Positions 38,799-46,742 of a stretch of DNA of 64,000 bases are shown here, piece by piece. The stretch covers positions 881,501-945,500 of the forward strand of contig NC_019689.1 of the NCBI RefSeq assembly GCF_000317025.1, given 5' to 3'. The position numbers and the translations under genes are program-made. The stretch's first letter is position 1; the number at the start of each line of letters is the position of its first letter. The notes beneath the pieces are model-generated. The model was not told the origin of the DNA. It made no database searches and worked only from the letters and a program-made list of their open reading frames with translations. Source of the stretch: Pleurocapsa sp. PCC 7327. GTDB lineage: Bacteria; Cyanobacteriota; Cyanobacteriia; Cyanobacteriales; Microcystaceae.

Positions 38799-40445
38799 AT
38801 GAATACCTCACACTACGACATAATCCTAATTGGTTCGGGGATGGGCGCTCTAACCGTTGCAAGCCTAATGGCACAGATGCGAGGGAAAAAAGTCTTAGTC
38901 CTAGAACGCCATTTCAAAGCAGGCGGATATACTCATTCCTTCAAACGACAACAGTTTCATTGGGATGTCGGCATTCACTATGTCGGACAAATGGGAGAAG
39001 GTTCTCAAATGCGCCGCTTGTTCGATCTAGTGACTCAAGGACGAGTTGGCTGGCAAAAAATGCCCGATTTGTTTGAGAAGTTCGTCTATCCCGACTTCAC
39101 CTTTAATCTATACAGCAATAAAGAACGCTATATTCGGGATTTAATCGAGCAATTCCCCGAAGAAGAAAAAGCGATTCGCCAATATTTCCGCGATACGGCT
39201 AAAGCAGCGATCGCTCTTGGGATGCAGGCAACCAGCGAATCTGGTGGCTGGTTGAAGTTGCTCGGTGCCATTGTCAACCTATTTAATCCTCCCAGACTAA
39301 ACCTAACGACTCAGGAATATTTAGACAGACATTTTCAAAATCCCAAACTGAAAGCCTTATTAGTGTCTCAATGGGGAACTTACGGACTTCCACCAAGCAA
39401 GAGTTCTTTTGCCGTTCACTCGGCGATCGCGCAACATTATTTAGAGGGGGCATACTATCCCGTTGGCGGTGCGGGTAATATTGCAGCCAGCGTTCGAGAG
39501 ACTGTAGAAGCGAGCGGGGGTAAGATTCTTTTAAATCGGGAAGCTACCGAGATTTTAATAGAATATGGAAAAGCTGTAGGGGTAAGGGTTCGCAAAGTCA
39601 ATGCCAAGGAAGAGACTTTTGAGGAATATTATGCCCCCGTTATTGTCAGTAATGTAGGAGCGACGGCTACTTATCTCAAACTAATTCCCAGCGATTATCC
39701 TATTCCTTTCCGCGAGTCGCTGCGACGCTTTGTAGGGCAGCATTCCCCAGTGACGAATATTACCCTGTATTTAGGATTTTCCGAAGATCCGCGCCAACTA
39801 GGATTTCAAGGGGAAAATCACTGGATTTACGAGAGTTTTGACCACGATAGTATTTATAATCGCCGGGGTGAGTGGATTGAGAATGGAAAACCGATGGGAG
39901 TTTATCTATCGTTTCCATCGCTCAAAGATCCCCAGGCGAAAGCTCATACCGCAGAAATTATTGCTTGGGCAGATTATGAAACATTTGCTCGCTGGCGGAA
40001 GCAACCTTGGTTGAAACGAGATGAGGAGTATCGGGCACTCAAGCAGCAGTTGAGCCAATCGTTAATCGACTTGGTAGATCGTCATTATCCCGGATTTGCA
40101 AAGATTGTTGAATATCAAGAACTTTCAACGCCGCTAACTAACGAGCATTTTACAGGACACGATCGCGGGGGAATTTATGGACTGCCTATTGCTCCCGAAC
40201 GCTTTGAGAAGGAAAATGCTGCTTGGACTCATCCGAAAACTCCCGTACCGGGACTATATCTAACGGGCGCGGATTTGTTTATGGGAGGCATTGTTCCTGC
40301 CATGATGGGCGGCGTAGTTACTGTAGCCAATCTCCCGGATGGGATTTCTCTGCCTCAAGTCTTCATGGCAGCGAGACAGTTCAAAGCAGCAATGGAGAAA
40401 CAGGAGTCTCACCTGACGCGCACGCCGAGTGCCTTGTCCCAATGA
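38799..40445 (+). CDS. Carotene isomerase / retinol saturase-like flavoprotein
   Basis: A 548-aa FAD-dependent protein of the phytoene desaturase/CrtISO/RetSat family: dinucleotide motif IILIGSGMGALTVASLM (8-24), KKVLVLERHFKAGGYTHSF, GIHYVGQMGEG, YYPVGGAGNIAASVRETVE and closing GLYLTGADLFMGGIVPAMMG for FAD binding. A ribosome site AGGAGGA lies at 38787-38793 before ATG 38799. The GYTHSF block and HYVG match the all-trans-retinol saturase/CrtISO side rather than CrtI. The substrate (carotenoid, retinoid-like or other polyene) is not known. It is probably TetR-controlled and converges with the cyclase gene, overlapping it by 37 bp. Confidence 0.85.
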   Translation: MNTSHYDIILIGSGMGALTVASLMAQMRGKKVLVLERHFKAGGYTHSFKRQQFHWDVGIHYVGQMGEGSQMRRLFDLVTQGRVGWQKMPDLFEKFVYPDFTFNLYSNKERYIRDLIEQFPEEEKAIRQYFRDTAKAAIALGMQATSESGGWLKLLGAIVNLFNPPRLNLTTQEYLDRHFQNPKLKALLVSQWGTYGLPPSKSSFAVHSAIAQHYLEGAYYPVGGAGNIAASVRETVEASGGKILLNREATEILIEYGKAVGVRVRKVNAKEETFEEYYAPVIVSNVGATATYLKLIPSDYPIPFRESLRRFVGQHSPVTNITLYLGFSEDPRQLGFQGENHWIYESFDHDSIYNRRGEWIENGKPMGVYLSFPSLKDPQAKAHTAEIIAWADYETFARWRKQPWLKRDEEYRALKQQLSQSLIDLVDRHYPGFAKIVEYQELSTPLTNEHFTGHDRGGIYGLPIAPERFEKENAAWTHPKTPVPGLYLTGADLFMGGIVPAMMGGVVTVANLPDGISLPQVFMAARQFKAAMEKQESHLTRTPSALSQ

Positions 40446-41404
40446 ATTGGCTTATCGGACTTGGGCAAGGGAGCTTCTGGAGTCTGTCCCACTGATACCC
40501 CATACTTCCAGTCTGGCGGGCAAATAGCAATATAACGTGCATACCCTCCCAAACCGCCTTTGAACTTGGAATATCCGATGGCAACCAAAGCCCCCGTTTC
40601 AGGCACCCGATCTAAATTCGCCACTCCTTCTGCCTGGGTATACCCGTTGTGTAAGAGCCAAGCTTCTCCTTCGAGAGTAGGCGTGCTGTCGGTATCGAGT
40701 GGCTCGTGCCCGTGCAGTAAGATCTTGCGCTCTAGATGCAGAAATTTGAGCGCCTCCAGCCCTACGCCAGGAAATTTGCGTCTTTTAGCCAAATCGGGGT
40801 TGGGCCATTCCTTAGACCAGTCGGAGCGCACGAAGACAACCGAGCCTTCGGGAATCTTGCCGTGCTTTTTCTCCCAAGCAAGAATATCCTTAACGGCGAG
40901 GTGATAATTGGGGTCTTTGGCAACTTTGTCTTGGATGGGAATGACGACGAGAGGACGAATGGCATAAGTGGCTGGGAGTTCGTCGATGGTTGGATAGTAA
41001 GGATCCCAATGGGCGGGCGGATCTAACTGAGTACCGAGCTGATCTGTAGATAAGTCGTAGTGGGTTGCCTCGAAGCCATCGGTTTTGTAGGTGTAGGGTT
41101 TGCCAGTCTTGGGATTGACTGTCGGCTCGAACTTGGACGGTCCAAACCCTTCCCAGACGGGAATTGAAGGCGCGATCGCATGGGTGAGATCGACATATTT
41201 GGCGTTTTTGAGCGACTGCTGATAGACTTGCCACAGGGAAGGCTCGCGTCTGGACTTTACCGCCTCTGCGGGCAAAGAGATCGCCGCGATCGCCAAAGCC
41301 ACAAAACAAAAGATTGCGAAAATAGTTCTCTTGGTTGGCTGACTAAAAAATCTATCTAAAACGCTTTTTAGAAAGGATTTGACGCGAAAGATAGCCTTAC
41401 TCAT
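40409..41404 (-). CDS. Secreted cyclase family protein (kynurenine formamidase-like)
   Basis: A 331-aa protein with an N-terminal hydrophobic segment ending AISLPAEA (about 27-50), so exported. The cyclase domain has VDLTHAIAPSIPVWEG near its start, the DQLGTQLDPPAHW block where the family usually has a HxGTHxDxPxH metal site (the first His and the H of GTH are replaced by Asp and Gln), and YSKFKGGLGGYARYIAICPP near the end. The metal site is thus changed, though ATHYDLS nearby may supply a ligand. Substrate unknown. Its 3' end overlaps the flavoprotein gene (convergent), which may couple their expression by antisense. Confidence 0.75.
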   Translation of the reverse strand: MSKAIFRVKSFLKSVLDRFFSQPTKRTIFAIFCFVALAIAAISLPAEAVKSRREPSLWQVYQQSLKNAKYVDLTHAIAPSIPVWEGFGPSKFEPTVNPKTGKPYTYKTDGFEATHYDLSTDQLGTQLDPPAHWDPYYPTIDELPATYAIRPLVVIPIQDKVAKDPNYHLAVKDILAWEKKHGKIPEGSVVFVRSDWSKEWPNPDLAKRRKFPGVGLEALKFLHLERKILLHGHEPLDTDSTPTLEGEAWLLHNGYTQAEGVANLDRVPETGALVAIGYSKFKGGLGGYARYIAICPPDWKYGVSVGQTPEAPLPKSDKPIHWDKALGVRVR

Positions 41405-42464: not shown

Positions 42465-42811
42465 TTAGTCAGATTGAGTTATTGCCCAACCAATTTCTGC
42501 TTGTAGAGCCAAATTATTTCGCTCTTGAGAAACGCCAACAAAACCTCCAATAAAATTCAGATTAAATATTTCTTGATAGTATTTCCAAACAAAAGGAACT
42601 TGCGATAAACCAACTGGGAAACAATCCATAGTTGATTCGGCTAAATATGGACTGTCCCAATTTTTAATTGCTGCATCTACATAAGGATTTATTTCAGTGT
42701 AATTTCCTTGTATATCTCTGAGATAAGGAAAAAAGACGTTAATCCAACCCTAATTGAAGCTCCTCCAGAAGTATCATCAAATTTGTAGAAAGAACGCCAA
42801 AATAGAACTCT
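42465..42811 (-). pseudogene. DUF4419 protein, C-terminal remnant
   Basis: Minus-strand pieces give WRSFYKFDDTSGGAS from about 42800 to 42765 in one frame, a stop, then GWINVFFPYLRDIQGNY and on, TMDCFPVGLSQVPFVWKYY and FIGGFVGVSQERNNLALQAE plus IGWAITQSD, ending at TAA 42465. SGG, GWI-FFPYL, FP-GLS-VPFVW and GGFVGVSQ are the signature steps of DUF4419. Frame change and stop near 42765 show that the gene is broken, and its N-terminal two thirds is absent: the PlsY fusion gene starts its 3' end right there. Confidence 0.75.
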
Positions 42812-45695
42812 AATCTTCCAATATTTCCACCACCCCCATTTGACCGTCAACTCGCACTCGCTGACCATCTCGCAACAGGTGAGTTGCATTGTAAATATCC
42901 ATGACGGCGGGAATTCCGTACTCGCGAGCAACGATCGCGCCATGGGATAAAGCACCGCCAACTTCAGCAATAATTCCGCCAGCACGAGCGAGGATAGCTG
43001 TCCAACCGGAATCAGTATAGGGAACGACGAGAATGGTTTGTGGGTCGATTTCCCCTATTTGTTGCAGCGTTCTGAGAATTTTGACTTGCCCTTCTGCTAT
43101 GCCAGGACTGGCAGCAATTCCCTGCAAGCGTCCTTTGGCAGGCAGAGGCGCAGCAGACAGAAAAGAGGTTTTCGGACTGCCGTAGACGACGAAGGGAACG
43201 TGAGTAATCGCTTGATTCTTCTTATATTGAGTTCGTCGTTGTTGGATGAGTTGGGGCAACCGTTCTCTCAGTTCGGGAGCGGAATTTTCAATAAAGCGGT
43301 GAATTTCATCAAATTCTAGAAAAAAGATGTCCCCTTGAGCAGAAAGCGTGCCGTCTTTAAGCCAAAATTCCTCTAGAGCGACAAAAGTCCATCGCAGATG
43401 AGCGAGCAGTTGCGAGTAGATTTCAGTTGCTTGTCCTTTGAGATTGAGACGCTTTTGTACGAGTTGTACTTTCCATGCCTGCGTTTGCACTGCGTTCTCT
43501 TTCGGTTGCGGCGGATGAAAGAGAAAGCGGGTAAATAGGGCTCTCATCGGGCGAGGATCTTCTATCCAGCGAGGAACTGCGATATCGGTTGCCACTTCGC
43601 TCAGGTAGCCATAGCGTTCGAGCCATTGTTTAAACTGTTCTAAAATGTTTTGTCCGTCGGGGGTTTCTGCCAAATATGCGAATAGGGAGGGGCAGCTATA
43701 ACCGCTCAATTGTTCGATAGGTAGTAAGTTGCGAGCATAAACAGCAAGATCGGCAAGCGATCGCGAGGAGGCAACTTCTGGAGTTTGGCTGTTATCGAGT
43801 TGTTCGGGCGATACTTTGAAGATTGCTTGTCGCAGGGCAAGACTTAGAGGAGCGAGTATGCTGTAGTAAGTTGCCTGTTTCAGAACGGGTAAAATCGTAT
43901 CTATCCTTTCCCATAACTCCGAAAGAGACGATTCTGATAGAGGGATAGCTTGGATCAAATTAAAAGTTGGCGTAAAGTATCTATATTTGTCTCGCTCAAA
44001 GTCTCGCTCTAAATTCCACTCTCTCTCCAATAACCTCAGCAATCCCGGAAGGTTGCGCAAGGTAGATTCTAAGGGAGGCTTGCTAAATTTTGCGCCTCTG
44101 GTAAGAAACTCTAAACTTTCTGAAGGGAGTCCCATGCGGCGGAAAATCTCTCCCAACAGCGTCGCGTTAAAATAGGCGCGTTGGTAATGTAGCGTTGCCG
44201 TTTCGTTAAAATCCAATCCCCTTGACCGTTTTCCCAAAACTATCCTAAAAATCTCGCCCCACACGCCACAAGTGAGGGGACGATTGAGCGACCACGTTAG
44301 CGGACGAATGACCCCTGGAATGACTTCAGCGGCAATCTTGCGCGTCCAAATCGGATGCAGATTGGTAATCGATCGCGCTTGAAGCAACCACAACTGTTGT
44401 CCGTCAAAAGTCCATTCGATATCTTGAGGAATGCCGTGATACAGATCTTCTATTTCCCGTGTTATTTGGGCAACTAATTGCAGTAATTCTCGCGGAACGT
44501 CGCCATTTTCTGAATTCTGTCCGGGCGAACTGCCGTTTGCTCCTACTTCTATATAATATCTTTCGGGAGTAACTTTCCCCGATACCACTCGCGCTGCGTC
44601 TCCTGGCAAGGCTTCGATGACAACGGCTGTATTCAAGGGATTTATAGGATCGCGGCTAAAAGCAACGCCAGAAAAAACGCCTCGAACCTGTTTTTGAATC
44701 AATACCGCCATCGCAGCATTAGTTTGATTTCTGTCTTGACGATACCTGACGGCAGAGGGAAGACTGTAGGAGGTTTGACAGTCGAGAATGGCAGCCTGTA
44801 GGGCTTCGCGGCTAGTAACGTTCAAAATGGTAATATACTGTCCCGCTGCTGAGGCGGTTTCCGAGTCTTCGCCAATGGCTGAAGAACGAACGACCAAGGG
44901 ATTTTCAACCGAGGGTTCGAGAAAGGCAAGTAACGGTTGCGGGTCGTCGCCTGGGGGAAGAACCCAGCCATCGGGAACGTCGTAACCTAATCGTTTTAGG
45001 CGCGAGAGAGTCGCAGCTTTTTGTCCGACTTTGCGGGCATCCAGCTTATCATTTAAGGAGGGGATGGCGCGATCGCCTTGGAAAAAACGAAACAGTTTTC
45101 GCGATCCTGCTTTTGCCGAGCGCGAGGGAAGATCGAGATCGTCGGGGATTTTTTGATAGATCCAGGCAAGCAACCCAACTAGCGCGATCGCAGCAGCAAT
45201 GTATTCGCTGCTATTGGGATGTCGCAAGGCTAAAATCAGAGCTAGCACAAACAGTCCTACCAAACGCCCGGATTTGCGCTCCCGAAAGATCGTAAAACTA
45301 ATTCCCCCTATCAGAACGGTCAAAAGGGCTGCCTTCCAATCGTGAGCGACAATTCCCCAAAATACATTGGTCGTTCCGGCACCTTTGCCCATCCAATAAC
45401 GTCCGGCAACTAGGGCAATCAAGGCGATTAACTCCCATACTGGTTGGGAGGGAAAGAACCAACGGGCTAAGAAAACGGCGGCGATTCCTTTTGCCGCTTC
45501 TGACAAAACGGCTAATATTCCTACAACAGTCCCGCCGTGATAAAAAGCTGCCGAGACGGAGATATTTCCCGTTCCCAATCTCGCTAGCTTTCGTCCCGTT
45601 AGCCCATAGGTAATCCAGTCAATTAGAGGAAGTCCTCCTAGCAGGGGACACGCTATAAAAATCAGTAGAGAACCCCAAAGCTGTGTAAGCGTCAT
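42810..45695 (-). CDS. PlsY acyltransferase fused to PEP-synthase-like ATP-grasp and phosphohistidine domains
   Basis: A 961-aa fusion. Residues 1-200 carry about five membrane spans and the PlsY signature (LGTGNISVSAAF, KGIAAVFLARW, and GKGAGTTNVFWG), i.e. the acyl-phosphate:glycerol-3-phosphate acyltransferase fold. Residues about 215-455 are a PEP-synthase-type ATP-grasp domain (LVVRSSAIGEDS, AAGQY, VFSGVAFSRDP, DIEWTFDGQQLWLLQAR). Residues 860-961 are the swivelling phosphohistidine domain (GGALSHGAIVAREYGIPAV with His918). The middle 460-850 is the linker seen in PEP synthase/rifampin phosphotransferase-like proteins. Phosphotransfer is predicted but the PEP-binding barrel is absent or altered, so the acceptor is unknown. 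Membrane bound. Confidence 0.85.
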   Translation of the reverse strand: MTLTQLWGSLLIFIACPLLGGLPLIDWITYGLTGRKLARLGTGNISVSAAFYHGGTVVGILAVLSEAAKGIAAVFLARWFFPSQPVWELIALIALVAGRYWMGKGAGTTNVFWGIVAHDWKAALLTVLIGGISFTIFRERKSGRLVGLFVLALILALRHPNSSEYIAAAIALVGLLAWIYQKIPDDLDLPSRSAKAGSRKLFRFFQGDRAIPSLNDKLDARKVGQKAATLSRLKRLGYDVPDGWVLPPGDDPQPLLAFLEPSVENPLVVRSSAIGEDSETASAAGQYITILNVTSREALQAAILDCQTSYSLPSAVRYRQDRNQTNAAMAVLIQKQVRGVFSGVAFSRDPINPLNTAVVIEALPGDAARVVSGKVTPERYYIEVGANGSSPGQNSENGDVPRELLQLVAQITREIEDLYHGIPQDIEWTFDGQQLWLLQARSITNLHPIWTRKIAAEVIPGVIRPLTWSLNRPLTCGVWGEIFRIVLGKRSRGLDFNETATLHYQRAYFNATLLGEIFRRMGLPSESLEFLTRGAKFSKPPLESTLRNLPGLLRLLEREWNLERDFERDKYRYFTPTFNLIQAIPLSESSLSELWERIDTILPVLKQATYYSILAPLSLALRQAIFKVSPEQLDNSQTPEVASSRSLADLAVYARNLLPIEQLSGYSCPSLFAYLAETPDGQNILEQFKQWLERYGYLSEVATDIAVPRWIEDPRPMRALFTRFLFHPPQPKENAVQTQAWKVQLVQKRLNLKGQATEIYSQLLAHLRWTFVALEEFWLKDGTLSAQGDIFFLEFDEIHRFIENSAPELRERLPQLIQQRRTQYKKNQAITHVPFVVYGSPKTSFLSAAPLPAKGRLQGIAASPGIAEGQVKILRTLQQIGEIDPQTILVVPYTDSGWTAILARAGGIIAEVGGALSHGAIVAREYGIPAVMDIYNATHLLRDGQRVRVDGQMGVVEILED

Positions 45696-45890: not shown

Positions 45891-46742
45891 TTAGATGCTA
45901 TCTAAAAGTTCGTCCCACTCTTCCCATTGTGGGGCTGACGCTTCTGAGATGTTTCTATCCTCGTGAGGCTGAGTCGATAAAGCCTCTTCTGTTTGTTCTT
46001 CTGGTTCTATTTCTATGAAGGATTGTTTTTGCTCCTCAAGCTGACAGAGATGCAATTGTACATCGTTAACCGAACCTAATAATTGCTGTTTCTGGCTTTC
46101 TAATTCATATAGGTCGCGATCGAGTTGCTCTTTCTGGGCATATATCTCTGAGATATGGTCTTGCAGTTGCTGGTATTCTTCCCTTAATAGGGTTAAGCAA
46201 GTTTCCTCTCGATCGATTTGTTCTTGTCGATTTGCAATAATTTGGTCGAGTTCTTTTTTGAAATAGCTCATTTGCTGCAATTCTACTTGCAAAGCTTCAC
46301 AAGCTTCTTCTAACTCCTGCTTTTGTTCGGAAAGTTGCGGTAATTCTTGTTGGATTTCTCCTCGTCGTTCGTGCAGTTCGTTAACTTGGTTGATTAAATA
46401 ATTTCTTTCTACATTTAAATTACCAAGGCTCAATTCGATTTCTTGTCTGACGTTTGTCGTCGTCATTAAAGACTGACGCAGTTGATTTTCATAATTTTCG
46501 AGGCGATCGATCTCATCTTTGAGAGCTTGCGCTTTATTTTTTAAAGAGTTTCTTACTACTCGCTCTTGTCTGAGGGATTTTCTATCTACAACTGATGCTC
46601 CGATAAAACTAGCAGTTGTTGCGATCGCACCCGTTGTCAGTGCTTTTTTTAGATCTCTGTCGGCGATGAATCCAATACCACAACCTACGCCAAAAGCCAC
46701 TAAACAGAGCAAAATCCGATTCGCTAGCTTGGTTGACGGCAT
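45891..46742 (-). CDS. Membrane-anchored coiled-coil protein
   Basis: A 283-aa protein with two short hydrophobic segments near the N-terminus (about 8-25 and 34-51) and a long coiled coil from about 55 to 235, rich in Gln, Glu and Leu with heptad spacing (for example EEYQQLQDHISEIYAQKEQL). An acidic tail follows (EPEEQTEEALSTQ, EEWDELLDSI). No enzymatic motif. It could be a structural or cell-division-like scaffold, but I do not recognise a named family. It stands alone between the PlsY fusion and the DUF815 gene, with 195 and 401 bp non-coding on either side. Confidence 0.7.
   Translation of the reverse strand: MPSTKLANRILLCLVAFGVGCGIGFIADRDLKKALTTGAIATTASFIGASVVDRKSLRQERVVRNSLKNKAQALKDEIDRLENYENQLRQSLMTTTNVRQEIELSLGNLNVERNYLINQVNELHERRGEIQQELPQLSEQKQELEEACEALQVELQQMSYFKKELDQIIANRQEQIDREETCLTLLREEYQQLQDHISEIYAQKEQLDRDLYELESQKQQLLGSVNDVQLHLCQLEEQKQSFIEIEPEEQTEEALSTQPHEDRNISEASAPQWEEWDELLDSI

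Follow-up and report, generated by a model that had tools for sequence, protein, structure and literature searches.

Which reaction might be carried out by a protein that carries the membrane fold of an acyltransferase at one end and a phosphate-accepting histidine at the other? The question is raised by a gene in a 64,000-nucleotide stretch of DNA from Pleurocapsa sp. PCC 7327 (NC_019689.1, positions 881,501 to 945,500), termed the window in the following. The gene occupies positions 42810..45695 of the window on the reverse strand and encodes 961 amino acids, the open reading frame having been placed correctly to the nucleotide in an initial annotation. Its product, as judged by the reading frame itself, Pfam, an AlphaFold2 model and structural matches, consists of a PlsY-like membrane domain, an ATP-grasp domain, a central domain and a phosphohistidine swivel domain. 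The initial annotation described a PlsY acyltransferase fused with phosphotransfer domains similar to those of phosphoenolpyruvate (PEP) synthase. Its view that a lipid-type membrane fold has been joined to an ATP-driven phosphotransfer is supported by the domain composition, and so is its suspicion of an unrecognised reaction. The protein belongs to a conserved cyanobacterial family of dikinases related to rifampin phosphotransferase (RPH); its architecture is real and, as far as we searched, has not been described, and it is neither a PlsY nor a PEP synthase. The simplest reading is that of a dikinase with its substrate or product in the membrane. We consider it reasonably probable that the fusion is an RPH-type dikinase embedded in the membrane, where a remodelled PlsY fold holds a lipophilic substrate for phosphorylation.

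The soluble part and its relatives

The three domains named in the initial annotation all score above the Pfam gathering thresholds: G3P_acyltransf (PF02660) at residues 16-178 (E 2.6e-16, score 60.6 versus a gathering threshold of 24.1), PPDK_N (PF01326) at residues 264-383 and in a second stretch (E 3.3e-39) and PEP-utilizers (PF00391) at residues 884-954 (E 7.9e-23). The ATP-grasp (PPDK_N-like) domain, also recovered with an RPH ATP-grasp profile, extends over approximately residues 212-446 (44358..45062, reverse strand) and the swivel domain over approximately residues 856-960 (42816..43130, reverse strand). His918, the predicted phosphate carrier, is indeed the histidine within GGALSHGAIVARE (codon at 42942..42944, reverse strand). 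Absent from the earlier domain list is a large central domain at about residues 449-780 (43356..44351, reverse strand), which was covered by no Pfam model in the scan of the 961-residue protein. It is mostly helical in the structural model and lies inside the whole-length match to RPH, where its counterpart is the rifampin-binding domain; here it is presumed to be the substrate domain.

The model, predicted with AlphaFold2 from a 54-sequence alignment (mean predicted local distance difference test score 82.6), matches RPH structures over about 870-900 columns, nearly the whole soluble length, with 901 columns and an E value of 2.2e-27 for 5hv1. In profile comparisons, RPH (5fbs) is matched with an E value of 1e-84, far better than pyruvate phosphate dikinase (PPDK). 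RPH (PDB 5FBS, 5HV1; PMC4844700) is the best match in sequence and fold; it has the same order of ATP-grasp domain, central substrate domain and C-terminal His swivel domain, and its ATP-site lysine and arginine and its swivel histidine are conserved in the fusion. Arg270 and His918 align with 5fbs, where their counterparts are Arg117 and the catalytic His825, while Lys226 was equated with RPH Lys22 from its place in the GxKAxxL motif. In Listeria RPH, the exchanges Lys22Ala and Arg117Ala abolish resistance and Glu297Ala does not (PMC4844700). Residues K226, R270, D277, E427, Q439, R441 and H918 are all present in each of the 107 intact members of the family defined below. Unlike the fusion, RPH lacks a membrane domain, and the fusion reaches 220.9 bits with the RPH equivalog model NF041857, for which the cut-off is 999.

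The two-component dikinases HpeHI, CreHI and PpsAB have dikinase chemistry in common with the fusion by homology, HpeI (9goj) matching its residues 219-446, but consist of two separate soluble proteins without a PlsY-like domain and act on phenolic substrates (PMC12167813). The exchange H581Q abolishes the activity of HpeH (PMC12167813), and the same change from His to Gln is also seen in decayed members of the fusion family. PEP synthase and PPDK possess homologous ATP-grasp and swivel domains; there, however, the swivel domain resides in the middle of the protein and a pyruvate-binding domain at the C-terminus, whereas the swivel domain of the fusion ends the protein at residue 960 and its central domain is unrelated to theirs. 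With TIGR01418 (PEP_synth) the fusion scores 170.9 bits against a cut-off of 739.75. Two typical PEP synthases are encoded in the genome, in reading frames of 812 and 834 amino acids, so that PEP synthesis is covered elsewhere, and there is one further relative of 778 amino acids. The prodigiosin-type ligases PigC and RedH belong to the same wider dikinase-like superfamily, and the fusion scores about 213 bits with them, close to its RPH score; still, their cut-offs of 1300 and 1350 are far above this value and they do not contain a PlsY-like domain. No prodigiosin genes were noticed in passing beside the fusion gene. Judged by domain order and profile scores, the soluble part is thus best described as having the architecture of RPH and the small-molecule dikinases and not that of PEP synthase, and the label "PEP-synthase-like" should give way to "rifampin-phosphotransferase-like small-molecule dikinase".

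A PlsY fold with an altered substrate site

The membrane domain comprises residues 1-188 (45132..45695, reverse strand) and is recognized not only by Pfam but also by a profile-profile match to canonical PlsY (probability 97%) and by its fold, as 180 columns of the model superimpose on PlsY 5xj7 with a root-mean-square deviation of 2.8 and a template modelling (TM) score of 0.75 by target length. PlsY (PDB 5XJ5-5XJ9; PMC5700162) and the fused domain thus have a membrane fold in common, but the two are only about 20% identical, substrate residues are replaced and a loop is shortened. The PlsY equivalog model TIGR00023 (cut-off 137.2 bits) gives 16.5 bits for the fused domain and 200.5 bits for the canonical PlsY of the same genome, which served as positive control. 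This canonical gene (C1:946399-946959, E 4.8e-53) lies about 900 bp beyond the end of the window. The initial annotation had asked whether a normal PlsY exists in the genome and had regarded the lack of one, combined with complementation by the fusion, as evidence against its reading; since the canonical gene is there, this objection falls away. PF02660 matches were found in 115 of 116 sampled genomes, nearly all of which have a single strong canonical copy.

In PlsY, the phosphate of glycerol-3-phosphate (G3P) is contacted by Ser35, Arg45, Lys104 and Asn180 and its 2-OH group by Ser142 and His177, while the acyl phosphate contacts the backbone of Lys104-Ala107, His92, Ala40 and Thr41 (PMC5700162). 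The six residues of the G3P pocket are kept in all 28 canonical cyanobacterial PlsY copies. Within the fused family, Ser35 is replaced by Thr, Arg45 by Tyr, Asn180 by aliphatic and His177 by aromatic residues, and Ser142 is variable. On the acyl-phosphate side, His92 is replaced by Arg in 107 of 107 proteins, Ala40 by Val and Thr41 is Ser or Thr in most. The position of Lys104 is occupied by Lys or Arg in 99 of 107; one MAFFT alignment placed Gly there, and in view of the profile alignment a loss of this residue is not claimed. In addition, six residues of the PlsY loop preceding GKG are deleted according to the alignment.

Instead, the fused family shows a distinctive and nearly invariant signature, GTGN-SVSAAFYHGG ... 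GRY..[KR]GAGTTN..WG. The first signature loop (residues 41-55, GTGNISVSAAFYHGG; 45531..45575, reverse strand) stands in place of GSGNxGATNxxR of PlsY, is near-invariant in the 107 intact relatives and is deleted in pseudoenzymes. The second, identified in alignments of relatives (residues 98-114, GRYWMGKGAGTTNVFWG; 45354..45404, reverse strand), takes the place of GHxxxxxxxFKGGKGVAT. Because most of the residues by which PlsY holds G3P are gone, acylation of G3P would not be expected from the fused domain, and the acceptor side of the site, as read from the alignments, differs from the known G3P pocket. The initial annotation was right about the PlsY-like domain, which is, however, no ordinary PlsY. 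As the replacements are almost invariant among the 107 proteins, the site seems to have been altered and then retained, not abandoned. With such a distinct signature kept, the domain is probably repurposed rather than dead, and on its donor side there may still be room for an acyl phosphate or another phosphate.

Coupled decay of the two halves and the possible reaction

In 120 proteins of the family, the PlsY-like domain was scored at 13 signature positions and the dikinase part at seven residues. At least 11 of the 13 signature residues and all seven dikinase residues are kept in 107 proteins, whereas the remaining 13 retain no more than eight signature residues and each of these lacks at least one dikinase residue. 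Mixed cases do not occur (Fisher p 1e-17, relatedness ignored). One function common to both halves predicts such coupled decay, and the two halves behave as one machine.

The decayed forms are of different kinds. Three full-length pseudoenzymes (G058, G083, G211) have Gln in place of His918 and a deleted signature loop; proteins of 388-472 amino acids in G326, G398, G417, G420 and G444 lack the C-terminal half; G170, G324 and G342 contain, next to an intact copy, a short paralogue that lacks the central domain; and family f5 has broken copies in G091 (Gln918) and G174. The full-length pseudoenzymes (L034:5936-8638, L035:5455-8157 and L033:6411-9155) have also lost the ATP-site lysine along with His918 and the PlsY loop, and are flanked by genes for an aminotransferase and for a membrane protein resembling GT39/ArnT glycosyltransferases. 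The short paralogues (L047:5329-7104, L179:1093-2874, L180:1093-2871) are of about 592 amino acids and consist of PlsY-like, ATP-grasp and swivel domains. The truncated proteins (L172:1495-2778, L171:1393-2811, L173:1216-2421, L174:1402-2568, L175:1087-2259) retain the membrane segments of the N-terminus and an ATP-grasp domain in decay, but neither the central nor the swivel domain.

Domain composition, conservation of the ATP-grasp residues and of His918, the changed PlsY site and the joint decay form the computed basis of the proposed membrane-embedded dikinase; its activity, the lipophilic nature of its substrate, the topology and the direction in which phosphate flows are what we infer. 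The C-terminal swivel domain and the conserved residues imply the RPH cycle. The predicted activity converts ATP to AMP and Pi, a small molecule receiving the phosphate. ATP would bind to the ATP-grasp domain, its beta-phosphate would be passed to His918 on the swivel domain and AMP and Pi would be released. The swivel domain would then dock on the central domain and the phosphate would be transferred to a lipophilic molecule, at either a hydroxyl or a carboxyl group; the PlsY-derived membrane domain may hold or receive this molecule in a remodelled pocket that would no longer fit G3P. The signature loops are predicted on the cytosolic side, the same as the ATP-grasp domain: in the sequence, positive residues adjoin the first loop and also the point at which the membrane domain ends, suggesting that both face the cytosol.

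Several observations weigh against this proposal. The 13 broken proteins do not represent 13 independent decays, a count that we considered and rejected, because 11 of them fall into one group of the joint tree, which carries a long-branch warning and requires a minimum of two changes. In trees from which the other broken groups were omitted, the groups of f9 and f22 are placed close to members of their own order or family, the f26 paralogue takes another position and the placement of the f24 group is not resolved. Joint decay thus happened at least twice and probably four or more times independently. Moreover, decayed forms are under purifying selection, with ratios of nonsynonymous to synonymous substitution rates (dN/dS) of 0.066 for G058-G083 (loci L034-L035), where selection is strong, and 0.14 for G420-G444. 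As these forms are still selected without His918 and the loops, some role may not need catalysis, which leaves room for a residual non-catalytic role of the dead forms. The critical Arg666/Glu667 pair of the rifampin domain of RPH corresponds to an unaligned stretch in the fusion with no alignable counterpart, so that RPH gives no guide to the second half-reaction. Finally, an operon common across the relatives and naming a pathway was not found.

Of the alternatives, a self-contained acyl-phosphate acyltransferase survives best, unlikely as it is. Its dikinase half would make an acyl phosphate from a free fatty or other carboxylic acid, and its PlsY-like half would consume this on the spot to acylate a phosphate-free acceptor. 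PlsY is the only known user of acyl phosphate, for which a supplier is needed (PMC5700162). The donor side of the site seems adapted and not erased, as seen from the substitutions at His92 and Thr41, the mostly retained basic residue at position 104 and the glycine-rich GAGTT loop; the clamp for the phosphate of G3P (Arg45, Asn180) is lost, and joint decay of both halves would agree as well. Against it stands the deletion in front of GKG and, to our knowledge, no RPH-type enzyme makes acyl phosphate. The full single-chain route is slightly more doubtful: acyl phosphate made by the protein's own phosphohistidine dikinase would pass to the PlsY-derived site and on to an acceptor other than G3P, bypassing acyl carrier protein (ACP)-bound acyl groups and PlsX. 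If this were true, ATP-driven acylation without acyl-ACP or PlsX would be widespread among cyanobacteria. It is similarly unlikely that the PlsY-like site serves as a second catalytic centre for acyl transfer rather than as a lipid-presenting site.

The chance is equally slim that the PlsY-like domain is a mere membrane anchor or passive lipid-binding dock for a dikinase that acts near the membrane on a soluble small molecule such as an antibiotic or a phenolic. RPH and the two-component dikinases do use soluble or amphipathic small molecules (PMC4844700, PMC12167813) and the known G3P site is gone, but a plain anchor has no need of the near-invariant loop residues G41, N44, V47, R99, G107, T109, N110 and W113, and exactly these are lost when the dikinase decays. 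If the protein were regulatory or structural, with ATP-driven phosphorylation of His918 serving as a signal to the membrane without a product and dead forms keeping the structural role, this would explain why purifying selection still maintains full-length pseudoenzymes and truncated forms; it is very improbable, however, given the strong conservation of the central domain, as expected of a substrate site, and the complete catalytic set in all intact members. A simple bifunctional protein composed of an ordinary PlsY and an ordinary PEP synthase is hardly credible, being suggested by the Pfam domain names but contradicted by the TIGR00023 and TIGR01418 scores, by the C-terminal position of the swivel domain and by the presence in the genome of a canonical PlsY as well as two PEP synthases.

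Occurrence in cyanobacteria and genetic environment

About 85 of the 292 Cyanobacteriota genomes sampled contain full-length relatives of the fusion, and the domain order, which the initial annotation proposed to survey, is conserved across the family. Among the same 292 genomes, those of basal lineages match the dikinase part only. A relative is encoded by 568 stretches among the contigs of GTDB species; the best 80 of these 568 are all cyanobacterial and include the genera Microcystis, Nostoc, Fischerella, Calothrix, Crocosphaera, Oscillatoria and Spirulina. Genomes of families f47 and f55, which are of the same class, contain full-length members as well. A profile of the PlsY-like domain alone matches in 180 of 291 Cyanobacteriia genomes, nearly all of the matches listed lying inside one frame of 950-1050 amino acids. 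Together with the full-length orthologues (45-68% identity) found in many separate genomes, these single frames show that the fusion is not an artefact of assembly or chance. An apparent natural two-gene version in G215, with a PlsY-like reading frame of 186 amino acids beside a dikinase frame of 809 (L048:6200-6360), proved to be a frameshift at the domain junction (...AWIYQKLLMI* in one frame, ...AADDLDLP... in another) and provides no evidence for separate genes. Matches in plasmids were obtained for 322 records, none of them reaching 80% coverage of the protein, and those listed start at about residue 190 or later. From these plasmid matches and the basal lineages, an occurrence of the fusion outside Cyanobacteriia was considered and rejected.

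Presence of the fusion follows genome size: it is found in 52 of 61 genomes with 4.5 Mb or more, in 12 of 21 between 3.5 and 4.5 Mb and in 4 of 34 below 3.5 Mb. Most cyanobacteria with larger genomes therefore contain it, among them the bloom-forming Microcystis and the heterocyst-forming Nostoc and Fischerella, and on account of this wide presence the reaction may belong to general cyanobacterial lipid or hydrophobic-metabolite chemistry. We found no description of the fusion in the open-access literature on PlsY, dikinases or RPH in combination with cyanobacteria, nor of any membrane-integrated small-molecule dikinase in the open-access literature searched; most subscription papers lay outside this search. 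Small-molecule dikinases form a large and mostly uncharacterised family. For this member, the architecture points to an undescribed reaction, possibly on a lipophilic molecule, and predicts the membrane as the place to seek the substrate. The automatic names "PEP synthase" and "glycerol-3-phosphate acyltransferase" are both probably wrong and can mislead metabolic models.

In Nostocales, a gene for an SGNH/GDSL hydrolase is located divergently upstream of the fusion, and it lies directly downstream in a single genome of the Leptolyngbyaceae. The enzyme is membrane-anchored both in the latter (L135:3170-4105, overlapping the fusion end) and at Nostocales loci (e.g. L150:6187-7152), and its orthologue in the genome of the window is unlinked to the fusion (C1:3239991-3240911). 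We rejected it as a pointer to a pathway because its co-occurrence with the fusion is largely an effect of genome size (116 genomes; p 5e-9 overall, p 0.03 at >=3.9 Mb). In many Nostocales, and only there, the start of a gene for a small cupin (PF07883) overlaps the stop of the fusion gene by 4 nt (e.g. L124:10904-11251). None of the NtcA, Pho box, HLR1, LexA and Fur motifs is enriched in 121 upstream regions, and a function in defence was discarded as PADLOC gave no match. Within the window, a putative cyclase family protein (PF04199, E 1.5e-32; 40409-41404, reverse strand) is encoded downstream of the fusion. A 283-residue coiled-coil protein with weak Pfam matches is encoded on the same strand (45891-46742) directly upstream of the fusion gene.

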